IMG/VR virus record: IMGVR_UViG_3300025769_000830
Span: 1 to 24,109 of that record
Strand: one strand, 5' to 3'
Origin: a virus
Length of the DNA: 24,109 bases
Below the pieces are notes generated by a model. The model was not told the DNA's origin, made no database searches, and saw only the letters and a list, made by a program, of their open reading frames with translations. The translations under genes were made by a program, and so were the position numbers. This document shows positions 9,432-24,109 of the stretch, piece by piece; within the stretch, counting starts at the first letter, position 1, and the number at the start of each line of letters is the position of its first letter.

Positions 9432-10661
9432 TTAGGTTACACTCCAATTTGTCTTTCTAACTATTCCAAACCTAGCTGCATAAGCTAAGGCATCCACCAT
9501 ATCATCATGAGATCCAGAGGATGGAAAGCTAGTTAATTCTCTTTCAAATTCTACAAGCCATTTAGCATTTTTCAAAAACCATATAGTGCCATTTTCTACA
9601 CCTGCAGCTGCAGGTACAGCTCTAGCAGTTTTACTTTTATCTGCTTTTAAGTTCCTTATAGGCAAACCCTGCCTCCTAGCCATCTGAATTATTCCTAAAC
9701 CAAAACTAGAATCCTCCACTCCCAACCAAGACATATTGTATTCATCAATCTTTGCTTCTATCTGTGGGAGTAACTCTGGAGCTTCTAATCTAGCTCTGAA
9801 TACATCCATTACTAAAAGCTTACCACTAGGAGTAGATCCTACTGTTATTATTACTGAGTAATCAGCAGTTTCTTTAATACTCAAAGCTGTGTCCATAGTG
9901 CCAAAGATAGATAGCTCAGAATGCTTTACTACTTCATCTCCTAAGACATACTCAGGATCATCTCCTGCAATAGTGTCATAATACTTAAACCATTCTCTTT
10001 TAAACATGTGTCCTACCTCTGTAAATTCTGCTAAGAACTCCTGAGCATATACCATTGAGCCTAACTCCTCTTTGGCTTGTGCTAACTCATCTTTATTTAT
10101 TCTAGGAGATTGCTCTGTAGGATAATGAAATACTTTCCAATCAGCTCTCCTTTTAGCATTATCAAACAACTCATAAAACCAATTTATGCCATTAGGTGTT
10201 GATATAAACAAAGCTTTGCCTAAGCTATCAGATAAGATTGGTCTAACTGTATCCCATGTTTCTTTATCTTGATAAGCTACCTCATCAAAGATTATTAAAG
10301 ATATACCACCTGCACCTCTAAGAGTTTCTGGCTTATTAGCTGATTTAATCTGTATAGATCCACCATTAGCTAAAACTATTCTTTTCTCTACCTCTCTTGT
10401 TTCTGCATAGTCCTCAGGTAATTGTCTGACTAAGCTTTTTAGATTAAGCCAAGACTCTAAAGCCTGTGGATATACAGGAAAGATAATCCAAACTTTTAAA
10501 CCTTTCAATGCTTGATCTACTGCTGCAACTAAAGATAAAGTAGTTTTACCCCATCTCCTACCACAAACAGCAATTATAAATCTGTGTTCATCTAATGCTT
10601 TTATAACTTCTAATTGTCCAGAATGTAAATCAGGTGGAGTAGCCTCAATAATCTGGCTCAT
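9432..10661 (-). CDS. terL: Terminase large subunit
   Basis: This 409-aa packaging ATPase-nuclease has Walker A CGRRWGKTT (residues 33-41), a conserved SANKPETLRGAGG loop, and Walker B LIIFDEV (Asp126, Glu127). The motif III / coupling segment is LFISTPNG. The RNase H-like nuclease has acidic residues at FGTMDTAL (Asp257), WLGVEDSSF (Glu316/Asp317) and SHDDMVDALAYA (Asp386, Asp387, Asp390). All parts are intact. The ATG overlaps the methyltransferase stop by one base. The methyltransferase sits between it and terS, which is not the usual arrangement. Confidence 0.96.
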   Translation of the reverse strand: MSQIIEATPPDLHSGQLEVIKALDEHRFIIAVCGRRWGKTTLSLVAAVDQALKGLKVWIIFPVYPQALESWLNLKSLVRQLPEDYAETREVEKRIVLANGGSIQIKSANKPETLRGAGGISLIIFDEVAYQDKETWDTVRPILSDSLGKALFISTPNGINWFYELFDNAKRRADWKVFHYPTEQSPRINKDELAQAKEELGSMVYAQEFLAEFTEVGHMFKREWFKYYDTIAGDDPEYVLGDEVVKHSELSIFGTMDTALSIKETADYSVIITVGSTPSGKLLVMDVFRARLEAPELLPQIEAKIDEYNMSWLGVEDSSFGLGIIQMARRQGLPIRNLKADKSKTARAVPAAAGVENGTIWFLKNAKWLVEFERELTSFPSSGSHDDMVDALAYAARFGIVRKTNWSVT

Positions 10662-11191
10662 CAGACTTCATTACCCCAAACATCCCAACCATCAGCTTTT
10701 TCTCTTGCAAAAAGTTCTATTCTAGGTAAATCTCCAACAAGTTCTACTATTTTATCTCTAACTTCATCTGGCTTTTTAGAATGTTCCATGATTCTTGCAT
10801 CAATAACTGAATGAACAGATTTAGATATTCTTTTAGGCTTACCTTTTCTAAAAATTAAACATAGTTCAGCATTACTTCTAGTCCATTGCCCTAAACCCCA
10901 AAACCATGAATCTGAAATTTTATTTTTTTTAACCCAAGTAAAACCATTAGTTGCATATTCAAAACCCCAATTTTTAGCAATTTCAAATACTTTATCTAAT
11001 ATTGGAAAAGTAACCCACATAAATAAAATACAATCATTATCAGCAATATCATTAACAGGCATATTTTTTATATCATCAATAGTCATAACTGAATAATGAT
11101 TACTTTGATTTTTTTTTCCACCACTCCAATAACTCCAAGCAGGATCTGCATAGATAATTTTATATTTTTTATCAGGAAAAGGTATCATCAT
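10661..11191 (-). CDS. MT-A70 family DNA adenine N6-methyltransferase
   Basis: This protein of about 176 aa is expected to transfer a methyl group from SAM to adenine N6. The catalytic motif is DPAW (residues 16-19, IIYADPAWSYW), the MT-A70 variant of DPPW. Other family blocks are HYSVMTIDDIKNMPV, CILFMWVTFPIL, GFEYATNGFTWVKKN, GQWTRSNAELCLIFRKGKP, SKKPDEVRDKIVELVG and IELFAREKADGWDVWGNE. The set looks complete for a phage-sized enzyme. Two adjacent ATGs (11191 and 11188) overlap the end of terS by about 20 nt; GGGAG inside terS favours the second. No cognate nuclease is adjacent, so an orphan protective or regulatory enzyme is likely. The target site is unknown. Confidence 0.9.
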   Translation of the reverse strand: MMIPFPDKKYKIIYADPAWSYWSGGKKNQSNHYSVMTIDDIKNMPVNDIADNDCILFMWVTFPILDKVFEIAKNWGFEYATNGFTWVKKNKISDSWFWGLGQWTRSNAELCLIFRKGKPKRISKSVHSVIDARIMEHSKKPDEVRDKIVELVGDLPRIELFAREKADGWDVWGNEV

Positions 11192-11672
11192 CCTGCTCCC
11201 AATCCCACTTGAACTTAATCTGTGGTTGTTCTATGTGATTTACTGTTACTTGTGGAGTACCTAAGCCATAGATTTGGCTTATCATCTTATAGCAAACATC
11301 TAACAATCCTTTTAATTCAGTAGGATTGAGTGATGCTAAATCTCTTTCATTTATTTCATTAATAATTCTAAAAATTACAGGCTTAAGCTCATTAGCTAGA
11401 TCTCTTGCAGTTTCTCCTACTTGAGCAAAAACTTCCCCAATTATTTGTTCATTTAGCATTTTATTAATAGCTTTGACTCTATCTAACCATTGATTCTTAG
11501 CAGAGATTTGGTATATTCTCCTCTCTGACAAACTGAAATTTTGTGCAACTCTAGGTAGTGTTCTACCTGCACCTAAACCTAAATAATACTGAAATCTTTT
11601 AAAATCAATATTAGATTCTCCTACTTGTTGTTGATTAGGTAAAGCTAAAGACATATCATCTATATAATCCAT
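11172..11672 (-). CDS. terS: Terminase small subunit
   Basis: This 166-aa protein has an N-terminal DNA-binding segment (residues about 25-65): FQYYLGLGAGRTLPRVAQNF then SLSERRIYQISAKNQWLDRV. This is the helix-turn-helix pattern of small terminase subunits that select phage DNA. A long helix and oligomerisation region follow (EVFAQVGETARDLANELKPV). The end is acidic (FKWDWEQDDDTFS). Just downstream come the methyltransferase and terL. No ribosome site precedes ATG 11672; instead TATACT lies exactly 6 nt upstream (11679-11684), suggesting a leaderless transcript. A second in-frame ATG (11654) also lacks a ribosome site. Confidence 0.82.
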   Translation of the reverse strand: MDYIDDMSLALPNQQQVGESNIDFKRFQYYLGLGAGRTLPRVAQNFSLSERRIYQISAKNQWLDRVKAINKMLNEQIIGEVFAQVGETARDLANELKPVIFRIINEINERDLASLNPTELKGLLDVCYKMISQIYGLGTPQVTVNHIEQPQIKFKWDWEQDDDTFS

Positions 11673-12594: not shown

Positions 12595-12810
12595 TCAATG
12601 TACAGGCAAGATACAAAATAATGAAATTCTAATAGGCTCTTTTGTGTTGTTTTCTAGTACCCATGCAGAAATTTTATTATTTGCAAATAGTTGTATTGTG
12701 CCATATTTCCAGAGTATCTTTTTTGTCTGTGGATCTATAATTCTTAAATCTGTAGGAATTACAAACTTAACTTTTTGATGCTTCTTGTATTCAATGTTCT
12801 GGTATATCAT
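12595..12810 (-). CDS. Unknown small basic protein
   Basis: This 71-aa protein begins MIYQNIEYKKHQKVKFVIPT if read from ATG 12810; a TTG six bases upstream is the other possible start. It is beta-rich with alternating hydrophobic and lysine residues (LRIIDPQTKKILWKYGTIQL, then KISAWVLEN), and ends FCILPVH. It overlaps the end of the preceding gene by 20 nt. Nothing in it matches a family I recognise; the fold could be a small OB- or SH3-like barrel. Confidence 0.5.
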   Translation of the reverse strand: MIYQNIEYKKHQKVKFVIPTDLRIIDPQTKKILWKYGTIQLFANNKISAWVLENNTKEPIRISLFCILPVH

Positions 12811-13222
12811 CCCCAAACATTTCTCTATAGTGCATTTTTTTAGCAGCTTTCCTGTAACTATGAGGATCTAATGCCTCTCTAAGTAGTTTGTTCTCATCAT
12901 CTTTTAAGTTTGTATAAAAAATATGTAAAAAATTATATAGAGTTTCAACAGTTTCATCTATAACAGTTGCACTTCCAAGCTCTGTCATAGTGTTTATATC
13001 AAATCTATCTCCCTTATTCAATACAATCTCTACAAGTGTTTGCATACCTTTAAGCATCATAGAGAAAGTTACTCCACCCTGACTTGTACCGAACAATGGA
13101 TGTTCTTTTGTTCCATCAATCTCTTTTATATTTTCAATCTTATCTATAAGAGTATGTTCAGAATTAATCAGCATTATGATGGCTCTATAGCCATAATTTA
13201 TTTCATCAGCAGCATATTCCAT
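12791..13222 (-). CDS. Unknown helical protein, 143 aa
   Basis: The product begins MEYAADEINYGYRAIIMLIN and appears mostly helical, with GGVTFSMMLKGMQTLVEIVL in the middle and an acidic/basic C-terminus (KLLREALDPHSYRKAAKKMH). No motif is recognised. ATG 13222 has AGAGGT 5 nt upstream and overlaps the preceding gene by 17 nt. The only CpG seen in the window (13090-13091) lies here, across a Phe-Gly codon boundary (TTC|GGT). Confidence 0.55.
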   Translation of the reverse strand: MEYAADEINYGYRAIIMLINSEHTLIDKIENIKEIDGTKEHPLFGTSQGGVTFSMMLKGMQTLVEIVLNKGDRFDINTMTELGSATVIDETVETLYNFLHIFYTNLKDDENKLLREALDPHSYRKAAKKMHYREMFGDDIPEH

Positions 13223-13775
13223 TTTTACCTCTTAAATTTACATTTCTTTGAGCCATTGGGATTCTACCATTACCCTGCTCCATAATATCTATGTGATTTT
13301 CTAAGCAATCACAGAAATTTCTATCTAGCAATTCTTTATAAAGATAATAAATCTTTTGTAGTGGAATTTTATATGATTTCTCTCCAGAAGCCTTATTTAC
13401 TTTGTAGGATTCTTTTATTTCCTCTATATCTATGCCTATAAACCTATTTGGAACACAATTAAGAAATATTAATCCTGATCTTGTATTCTTTGCCTGTGCT
13501 TTCTTTTTTAGATTATCTACTTTACTTGCTGAAATCCATAAATTACTTATATAATCTTTGTCAAAATTATGCCAATAACCAACAACCTGAAGCTCCATAA
13601 CATAAAGATTATTAAGTATTTTACAAACATAGTCCTCTGCAAAGTCCTCCTCATCTTTTATAACCTGCCAATTATTAGCTTCACAGACTTGATTCCAGAA
13701 TGGTCTAGCTTTTCTAACATCATAAAGATCATATTCCTCTGCTTTAAAATCTCTCCTATTGTTAGCATTAACCAT
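13206..13775 (-). CDS. Unknown 189-aa protein, possible nuclease-like fold
   Basis: I start at ATG 13775 (MVNANNRRDFKAEEYDLYDV), which overlaps the transglycosylase stop; the frame is open upstream to 13823 but that would overlap far more. The middle, with VMELQVVGYWHNFDKDYISN, ISASKVDNLKKKAQ and SGLIFLNCVPNRFIGIDIEE, has an E-x-strand, lysine-bearing strand, helix and strand order that faintly recalls PD-(D/E)XK nucleases. The canonical E-x-K is not there (ELQ instead), so this is only a hint. The C-terminus has paired cysteines (FCDCLENH, ending GICC). Confidence 0.55.
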   Translation of the reverse strand: MVNANNRRDFKAEEYDLYDVRKARPFWNQVCEANNWQVIKDEEDFAEDYVCKILNNLYVMELQVVGYWHNFDKDYISNLWISASKVDNLKKKAQAKNTRSGLIFLNCVPNRFIGIDIEEIKESYKVNKASGEKSYKIPLQKIYYLYKELLDRNFCDCLENHIDIMEQGNGRIPMAQRNVNLRGKNGICC

Positions 13776-14181: not shown

Positions 14182-14182
14182 T

Positions 14183-14482
14183 TTATGATGCCCAATCTTT
14201 TATATAGGCATAATGCTTTCTTGGAGTTCCATCCATATTTAGTTTACCTTTAACCTTAAAATTACAATTACACTCCTCTTTATAAATTTTAGAATTGTAA
14301 TCTCTATTTAATCTATGCACAGCTTTTCTTAAGTTTCCAGAAGTAGAAAACTCTGGATCTAATGAACAAATCCTGCCCTCTACTTCTAAAATATATCTAA
14401 TTTTTCTAAATTCTGATATATCTTTCTCTAAAAAAAGCATTTCAGTAAAACTATGCTTATTCCTAGCAAATAAACCTAACAT
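14183..14482 (-). CDS. Putative winged-helix DNA-binding protein
   Basis: In this 99-aa protein, FRKIRYILEVEGRICSLDPE, then GNLRKAVHRLNRDYNSKI and HYAYIKDW, fit a winged helix: helix, G-R-I-C-S turn, recognition helix with R-L-N-R, and a beta wing. Similar small winged-helix proteins occur in many phage early regions. CNCNF adds a cysteine pair in the wing. ATG 14482 overlaps the previous stop (TAATG). A role in regulating phage or host transcription is an inference. Confidence 0.5.
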   Translation of the reverse strand: MLGLFARNKHSFTEMLFLEKDISEFRKIRYILEVEGRICSLDPEFSTSGNLRKAVHRLNRDYNSKIYKEECNCNFKVKGKLNMDGTPRKHYAYIKDWAS

Positions 14483-22528: not shown

Positions 22529-24109
22529 CAGCTAATACTTAATGTCTTACCCTGATTTGATTGTCTATTAGTAGATTTTTGAATAACTTCATCAACTTTT
22601 TCATCTCCAATATAAACAGGAATTACAAAAGTTTGTTCTACATTACTATTGCTATTTGTTGAAACTCCACTTTGATCTCCTAGTGTATCAGCAGGAGTTT
22701 CTGTACCATTTCCAACTAAAGGAGATGCTGTAAAGCCTCCTGCTAAATTTAATTGACTTAATTGTTCATCTAATATCTCTACAAGACTTTTACCCTCTAC
22801 TTTTTCTAATAATATTCTATAATTCTCTAAAGCTCCATTAATAGCCTCTGCCCAAGTTATATTCAAAATATCAGCAGCATCTTGTATTGAATCTTGAAAG
22901 TTATCAGTTGCAAATAAATCTAAAACATCTTGCAAATTTTGAGCTGCTTCTAATTGAGTATCCATAGCAGAAGTGCCTTTACCTGTAGCTTCATCTAAAT
23001 CCTCTTGAGCTTCTGTAGCTCTTTTTCTTGCTTCTACTAATTGATCTGATTCTCTGGTTAAAGCTAATTCTATTAATCTAAGTTCCTCTTGTGCTACTGC
23101 TAATTCTTGAGTTACATTCTTTCCCTGCCCCTGAAAGAAAGTAAGCTCTGCAATCTGTTGCTGTAATTCTTTTTTCCTTAGAGCTTCTTGAGCAGTTATT
23201 AAACCCTCCTCCTCTAAAGCTCTGTTAAGATCCTTTTGAGCATCATCTCTATTCTCTTGTAAATCAGTTAAGTCTTTAATTTGTTTAGCTGATATGCCTA
23301 ATACTCCTGCTAATTTTTCTGCAAAAGGAAGTACATCTTTTTTTAATGTTGTTCCAAACTTTTTCTGTGTTGGTATTAATAAATTGACTAAACTTTTATT
23401 TTTATTTAATGAATTGTTAATAATATTTGTATTTTTTGCATAATTGTCAAATTGTTGTACAAGTTCCTCAGTTGATTCTTTTTGTTTTTTTTCTATTAAT
23501 ATTTGTGCTTGTTGTTGTATACCTCTTGCTTTTAAAACTTTACCTAAAACTGAAAAAGATGTTACACTCTTATCTAAAAACTTTCCTATTTTACTTTGCT
23601 CATCATTATTTCCACTTGTAGCATTTTTTAAATCCTCAAATAACCCAACAGCACCTAAAAGCTGTACATTCAAATCTGAAAATCTTTCTATTAATGCAGG
23701 AGTTGATTCCTCTCTCATCTCATTAAATACTCTTAAAACCTCTCCTGCTGCAGGGAGTAACTGTTCTCCCATTTCCTCTCTAAGTTCTTGAGCAGCAGAT
23801 CTTGCTATTAATGTTTGTGCAGCAAATCCAGAGGCTTCTCTAGCAGCATTACCCTGCTGTACAGAGGATCTTTCAAATATAAGAGCTGTAGTTGCAAGAG
23901 CTTTTTCTTGCCTAGTTAATGCTTCTGCTGATGTTTTTCCTGTTTGTTCAAAAGCCTTAGTTTGTACCTCTGCTTCTGTTATTGCTATACCATAAGTCTT
24001 TAGAGCTTCTCTTTCTCCAACTAATGCTGATCTAAATGCTTGTAACACAGGAGCTGCACCTGCTGTAATATTGTTAAAGGATGCTATATCTCCTGCTAAG
24101 TTAAATAGT
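22528..24109 (-). CDS. Tail tape measure protein, C-terminal part (gene starts at 627)
   Basis: This is the remainder of the tape measure gene; 23920-24109 duplicates 1-190. The protein here is rich in charged coiled-coil helix, for example the Gln/Glu-rich run ending in ATEAQEDLDEATGKG. It ends in a low-complexity Ser/Asn/Thr stretch before a small beta-rich tail containing VIPVYIGDEKVDEVIQ, a common tape-measure C-terminus. The stop codon TGA (22530-22528) overlaps the ATG of the next gene by one base. An apparent GTG start at 24048 is an artefact of the silent T-to-G difference and of the cut end: the reading frame is open upstream across the join for 166 more codons to ATG 627. Confidence 0.9.
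   Translation of the reverse strand, partial: LFNLAGDIASFNNITAGAAPVLQAFRSALVGEREALKTYGIAITEAEVQTKAFEQTGKTSAEALTRQEKALATTALIFERSSVQQGNAAREASGFAAQTLIARSAAQELREEMGEQLLPAAGEVLRVFNEMREESTPALIERFSDLNVQLLGAVGLFEDLKNATSGNNDEQSKIGKFLDKSVTSFSVLGKVLKARGIQQQAQILIEKKQKESTEELVQQFDNYAKNTNIINNSLNKNKSLVNLLIPTQKKFGTTLKKDVLPFAEKLAGVLGISAKQIKDLTDLQENRDDAQKDLNRALEEEGLITAQEALRKKELQQQIAELTFFQGQGKNVTQELAVAQEELRLIELALTRESDQLVEARKRATEAQEDLDEATGKGTSAMDTQLEAAQNLQDVLDLFATDNFQDSIQDAADILNITWAEAINGALENYRILLEKVEGKSLVEILDEQLSQLNLAGGFTASPLVGNGTETPADTLGDQSGVSTNSNSNVEQTFVIPVYIGDEKVDEVIQKSTNRQSNQGKTLSIS
23920..24109. repeat. Terminal redundancy, right copy (circular contig join)
   Basis: This is the same segment as 1-190, one base different at 24046. 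Removing one copy leaves a unique circle of about 23,919 bp. A true physical terminal repeat would be possible, but its position inside a coding gene and the silent polymorphism fit an assembly overlap of a circularly permuted genome better. Confidence 0.93.

Follow-up and report, generated by a model that had tools for sequence, protein, structure and literature searches.

An MT-A70 methyltransferase gene in a terS/terL slot of changing content in a CpG-depleted phage clade

An adenine methyltransferase gene of the MT-A70 family lies between the two terminase genes of the virus described here. Its position raises the question whether methylation takes part in DNA packaging, as a sequence-only reading of the locus had proposed, or in the protection of phage DNA. 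The window, that is the whole stretch of DNA analysed, is a virus record of 24,109 bases whose called genes are all on the minus strand. A 190-base repeat (189 bases identical, one mismatch) joins its ends at positions 1-190 and 23920-24109. Because of this end repeat and of a tape-measure gene spanning both ends, the window is considered a near-complete genome, and the record probably covers the whole genome, with circular permutation or terminal redundancy. The terminase region has the following features:

9432..10661, minus strand: terL, large terminase (PF17289 Terminase_6C, 1.2e-14; TIGR01630; junction alignment)
10661..11191, minus strand: MT-A70 family adenine methyltransferase, 176 aa, motif ADPAW, the cargo of the terS/terL slot (slot A)
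11172..11672, minus strand: terS, small terminase (phrog_6299, 2.7e-13; junction alignment)
11192..11200, minus strand: putative Shine-Dalgarno-like sequence GGGAGCAGG inside terS, just before ATGATG

The methyltransferase frame has no internal stop and matches PF05063 over its full length (E 5e-27, 95.4 bits against a curated cut-off of 23.9, model positions 1-172 of 172), in agreement with the earlier description of an intact gene. It also matches the DNA methyltransferase family phrog_359 (2e-80), and PADLOC labels it a type II methyltransferase (2.4e-65). The overlaps given previously, about 20 nt with terS and one base with terL, are exact by coordinates: terS and the methyltransferase gene share the 20 nt 11172-11191, while the latter shares base 10661 with terL, its stop codon and the terL ATG reading TGATG. 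According to the junction alignment the 3' end of terS contains the cargo start codon together with a putative ribosome-binding sequence. The 9-mer GGGAGCAGG precedes 11 of the 12 listed slot-A cargo genes, locus L052 having GGGAGCAAG instead. Since the start lies inside terS and terL would be reached by re-initiation, the methyltransferase is probably made together with the terminase; the co-translation put forward by the sequence-only reading is thus well supported by the overlaps and the junction sequence.

The arrangement was followed across relatives by scanning IMG/VR with TerL, TerS, a second TerL, a TerL alignment and the junction pattern, which returned largely the same contigs. Removal of contained loci left 116 loci with 64 distinct terS/terL junctions, the window's included. 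Sampling of IMG/VR looks near saturation because further TerL scans (at least 80 loci each) yielded almost only contigs already in the set. Genome contigs searched with the TerL alignment gave 23 loci and no close relative, the best being 43% identical and belonging to a Planctomycetota MAG.

An insert is present in 15 of the 64 junctions and absent from 49. The two terminase genes overlap by 17 nt in 48 of the empty junctions; the exception is L064, where the TerL match begins at residue 17. The relative G002 (locus L023; 26,243 bases) has a TerL 98% identical to that of the window; of the 33 window genes tested it lacks the MT-A70 gene alone and has the other 32. Its gene order is that of the window, except for three similar tail-side proteins with crossing best hits, and the single open frame in it that showed a methyltransferase motif is on the strand opposite terL. 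Conservation of the terS-methyltransferase-terL order is therefore not what the survey found, and a relative lacking the gene in otherwise the same order is the first of two signs, the other being virion DNA free of 6mA, that had been named beforehand as speaking against a role in packaging.

The junction alignment displayed 14 filled and 18 empty junctions. All aligned filled junctions have a single break point, the terL start codon within the terS end. The empty junction of near relatives reads GGGATTGGGAGCAGGATG directly followed by ATGAGCCAGATTATTGAGG, with the terL ATG inside the end of terS, and the distant L090, L087, L178, L182 and L141 deviate in this stretch. When the junction is filled the cargo starts at the same ATGATG behind a GGGAGCAGG-type sequence and its end supplies or abuts the terL ATG (on or just past it). 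In L030, L040 and L086 the start of terL, at least its first 13 bases, is repeated on both sides of the cargo. A terL tree was built for 55 of the 64 junctions, including 13 filled ones. Slot occupancy requires 12 changes on this tree, compared with an average of 11.8 after label shuffling, so that filling and emptying are fast relative to terL divergence. The tree omits nine near-copies or partial sequences (L002, L038, L064, L066, L092, L101, L118, L143 and L186).

Slot A is readable in 102 loci, 80 empty and 22 filled; the filled ones are 22 contigs by name, the window counting as one, while the 80 include some overlapping loci of one contig. Labelled by profile searches for ten examples and by motifs for the rest, the cargo comprises 12 PF01555-type N6/N4 methyltransferases, of two kinds, five MT-A70 proteins, four PAPS-reductase/SspD-like proteins and one other N6-type methyltransferase with a weak Pfam match at the cut-off and a match to phrog_799 (2e-17). 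The PAPS-reductase-like genes (phrog_424), present in four of the 22 filled contigs, include:

L030, 106-987: PAPS-reductase/SspD-like slot cargo
L040, 2015-2875: PAPS-reductase/SspD-like slot cargo
L086, 9144-10004: PAPS-reductase/SspD-like slot cargo

Members of phrog_424 are usually counted as sulfur auxiliary metabolic genes (cysH). The available text of one study calls cysH the most abundant auxiliary metabolic gene in sediments not involved in DNA modification (PMC9301287). Two of the slot genes match PADLOC SspD (1.5e-18 and 1.1e-16). The L030 cargo, the one of its kind scanned against NCBIfam, matched no model there, and the structure search is neutral on the SspD reading because the L040 cargo had no match among solved structures up to E 1. 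Three phage neighbourhoods were opened of the 62 records with a match: the unrelated Gordonia phage PotPie has a 40% identical gene (544-1389) directly after terS and before terL, while in the other two phages the gene is near replication or recombination genes. It is a tentative suggestion, and could well be wrong, that the slot genes code for nucleic-acid modification enzymes, acting on phage DNA through sulfur chemistry of the SspD/DndC kind or leaving a related mark, rather than for enzymes of sulfur assimilation.

Neighbouring window genes were compared over 114 loci, using a 33-gene list without the tape-measure gene. Gaps above 200 nt are confined to a few joints. None occurs among 277 joint observations in the head/tail block (portal to g805) and the block g21284 to g16193, and the g16193/g15059 joint is wide in 14 of 14 cases, likewise in the window. 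A gap between terL and portal was flagged in 24 of 72 joints, yet open frames reaching 75 aa were absent from the display of these joints; the gap is taken as an artefact of portal matches that start inside the protein, e.g. in G002 (query 438-903). Three joints upstream of terS accept modification genes:

12791..12816, minus strand: slot C joint, empty in the window; N6/N4 methyltransferase genes in relatives
13768..13775, minus strand: slot B joint, between a lysozyme-like gene and the gene at 13206, empty in the window; MT-A70, C5-like, Mom-like or glucosyltransferase-like genes in relatives
14182..14183, minus strand: slot D joint, empty in the window; Dam, C5-like, N6/N4 or MT-A70 genes in relatives

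The MT-A70 gene is thus the only modification gene in the slots of the window, and in G002 all four slots are empty. Slot B also opens at a start codon, the leader MMVGIIGTVVSIVG standing ahead of the 13206 gene or of MT-A70. Its 54 readable loci hold MT-A70 (8), C5-like (6), Mom-like (5), glucosyltransferase-like (1) or other genes (7), or are empty (27), with profile matches of the Mom-like and glucosyltransferase-like cargo to phrog_1384 (2e-17) and phrog_842 (9e-16), respectively. Slot C is filled in 22 of 67 readable loci, 20 times by a PF01555-type gene as judged by motif; the other two fillings (L047 and L062) read SSPPYN and sit in records with PF01555 matches. The 42 readable slot-D loci have Dam-type genes alone or with others (12; PF05869 confirmed for one), a PF01555-type gene alone (1), MT-A70 (1), other or unclassified genes (17) or no cargo (11), and genes without sign of a modification function are also found there.

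Three observations concern individual loci of this region. The Mom-like slot-B genes belong to the more distant relatives L082, L089, L178, L182 and L184, the phrog_1384 search having been made with the L082 piece. The conserved slot-B gene of the window (13206-13775, MVNANNRRDF...) matches no Pfam or PHROG family and shows by eye an E-x-Q nuclease-like stretch. Positions 829-4652 of L049, a CpG-free phage, code for four methyltransferases (Dam PF05869, C5-like, MT-A70 and PF01555) in about 4 kb.

These distributions bear directly on packaging. The enzyme could mark pac/cos or the concatemer so that TerS and TerL cut or package only methylated DNA, as with Dam in phage P1. The position of the gene inside the terminase operon, overlapping both terS and terL, speaks for such a role. 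P1 provides a real precedent for phage adenine methylation tied to packaging, its GATC (Dam) methylation at pac being required for proper packaging according to the available text of a paper citing Sternberg and Coulby 1990 (PMC12707154), and a host methyltransferase may supply the mark in relatives with empty slots. However, P1 needs methylation to package while slots A-D are free of modification genes in close relatives of the window whose TerL is 98% identical; the empty state predominates among junctions, other enzyme families occupy the same insertion point and MT-A70 is found at other joints too, away from the terminase genes. Given the relatives with an empty slot and those in which other enzymes take its place, the link between methylation and packaging suggested earlier is rejected as the main explanation; it is very improbable.

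Which nucleic acid the enzyme modifies is the next issue. The catalytic motif in the window is DPAW, of the DPPW type, and activity of the DPAW form is putative. Alignment of 18 MT-A70 proteins, the window's included, shows DPAW in 14 and DPPW in four, with D, P and W invariant in all 18. The AlphaFold2 model built from 18 sequences has moderate confidence (mean pLDDT 73.8) and is poor at residues 23-31 and 164-176, the latter with pLDDT below 50. It features the METTL3/MTA1-like fold of the MT-A70 family. Its match to the MT-A70 DNA m6A enzyme MTA1 has a Z of 15.1 (145 residues at 3.0 A), and that to the mRNA enzyme METTL3 a Z of 14.4 (152 residues at 3.5 A). The two are tied, less than 1 Z unit apart, so that the fold cannot separate a DNA from an RNA substrate.

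METTL3 being among the best-matching solved structures, the protein might be an RNA methyltransferase that acts on 16S rRNA or mRNA and tunes translation or induction. MT-A70 proteins can act on RNA and, in the available text of the report, the prophage MT-A70 enzyme M.EcoPA8orf6770P methylates, with its partner PNB-2, preferentially 16S rRNA (PMC10810198). The window's enzyme is likened to it by family alone, both being phage-borne. Unlike M.EcoPA8orf6770P, the MT-A70 proteins of the window clade have no constant partner, since terS and terL flank slot A and other genes flank slot B. The slot is common to genes matching DNA methyltransferase families, the top structural match is a DNA enzyme, though tied, and the nearest annotated phage proteins (about 55-62% identity) are named DNA methyltransferase or MunI-like. 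An RNA target is therefore considered unlikely. The MunI-like relatives, from Pasteurella, Mannheimia and Klebsiella phages and phage nd4, differ in location: in nd4, Venkman, Pmp13 and GP-1 the gene is outside the terS/terL interval, either in early/replication regions or next to an HNH gene.

The MT-A70 protein of the window is 71% identical to that in slot B of L027 and 61% identical to that in slot A of L037. These identities and shared N-terminal residues suggest movement of the gene between slots A and B. A single origin of the slot-A MT-A70 genes was tried as a reading, on which the tree of the 18 distinct proteins cannot decide: it is poorly resolved, and the AU test does not reject a topology that groups the window copy with that of L037 (p-AU 0.45).

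The high turnover on the terL tree could also mean that the gene is a passenger with no current role, neutral or in decay, and there is one broken copy, in L101 (record G037, positions 2420-2821), which has an internal TAG and lacks the start and the N-terminal part. Set against this are the 12 of 13 MT-A70 copies without internal stops, the invariant catalytic residues and dN lower than dS in 28 of 28 pairs, a rough comparison as CpG avoidance distorts dS. Moreover, 12 slot-A cargo genes have 0 CpG where about 149 are expected, so that they have either shared the selection acting on the genome or been drawn from the same CpG-free pool. A passenger without function has scarcely any probability.

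A methylated motif was sought by site avoidance over all CpG-free palindromic 4- and 6-mers, comparing eight loci with and 35 without MT-A70, several of which share contigs, with kinship uncorrected. No convincing methylation site emerged among these palindromes, none being clearly tolerated in the presence of MT-A70. GTAC, AGTACT, CAGCTG, ATGCAT and CAATTG are if anything scarcer with the gene. CAATTG is the site of MunI, the namesake in the annotation of related proteins, and its avoidance is stronger in the MT-A70-bearing genomes (2 seen against 28.4 expected) than in those without (26 against 108.6).

The window has exactly one CpG (position 13090) where about 663 are expected from base composition, and GGCC is absent. 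Most relatives have 0-2 CpG over 9-21 kb; the L041-L046 group is at about 0.05 of expectation and the outer branches L089, L090, L087, L178 and L184 retain about 0.3 to 0.5. The loss is seen in relatives both with and without modification genes. The sequence-only reading saw CpG purging and the methyltransferase as two coexisting responses to host surveillance of DNA. They do coexist in the window but the traits are independent, L023 having a single CpG while all its slots lack modification genes, and they are treated as separate because adenine methylation is no obvious answer to a CpG-directed attack. A CpG-free phage clade was not recognised in the literature searched by title and abstract, and its absence from print is not claimed.

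A methyltransferase between terS and terL is already known from the lactococcal 936 phages. In the available text of two reports (PMC4190342, PMC4759559) the terS/terL region of these phages is a hotspot with orphan adenine methyltransferases (M.Phi93I, M.Phi93DAM and M.Phi145I), several in one phage, whose methylation of phage DNA protects it from DpnII and HphI; the authors argue against a packaging role since relatives lack the genes. ORFs are found between terS and terL in 65.55% of ninety 936 genomes (PMC4759559). The insert varies among close relatives in both groups. The 936 inserts described there also include homing endonucleases and unknown genes, while all 22 read in the window clade are methyltransferase or SspD-like; the clade differs further by one fixed start-codon insertion point, three additional joints and the MT-A70 family. 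Novelty here lies in the insertion site fixed at a start codon, in cargo of the modification type and in how many slots there are. In cryoconite phages, whose genomes are otherwise near-identical, methyltransferases are likewise the commonest variable genes with a known function; the flexible regions of these phages were defined as metagenomic islands, and the available text of that report describes no common start-codon slot in the terminase operon (PMC7468147).

Taken together, the MT-A70 gene probably codes for an exchangeable orphan methyltransferase in a fixed terS/terL slot, made with the terminase and methylating phage DNA against restriction (probability about 0.77). No restriction nuclease family was found among the 19 window proteins scanned with Pfam. 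Ribosomes would start at the terS-embedded GGGAGCAGG site, whatever cargo fills the slot, and terL would then be reached by re-initiation through stop-start coupling. Production would coincide with the presence of concatemers awaiting packaging, an appropriate moment for marking DNA destined for the next host. Before packaging, the enzyme would add N6-methyl groups to a short motif in the replicated DNA of the phage, and virions would thus bring into the next host DNA that is already shielded from restriction. Packaging as such would not depend on the methyltransferase.

The tempting packaging reading is thus replaced by a testable one, in which modification genes come and go at start-codon-precise slots while genome order is kept. 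Where a slot accepts one functional class, unknown genes may be assigned by position, e.g. the viral 'cysH', and if this is true slot swapping would be a way to discover new phage DNA modifications. Combined with the near-total CpG loss, this gives the clade the look of a natural archive of very strong restriction pressure.
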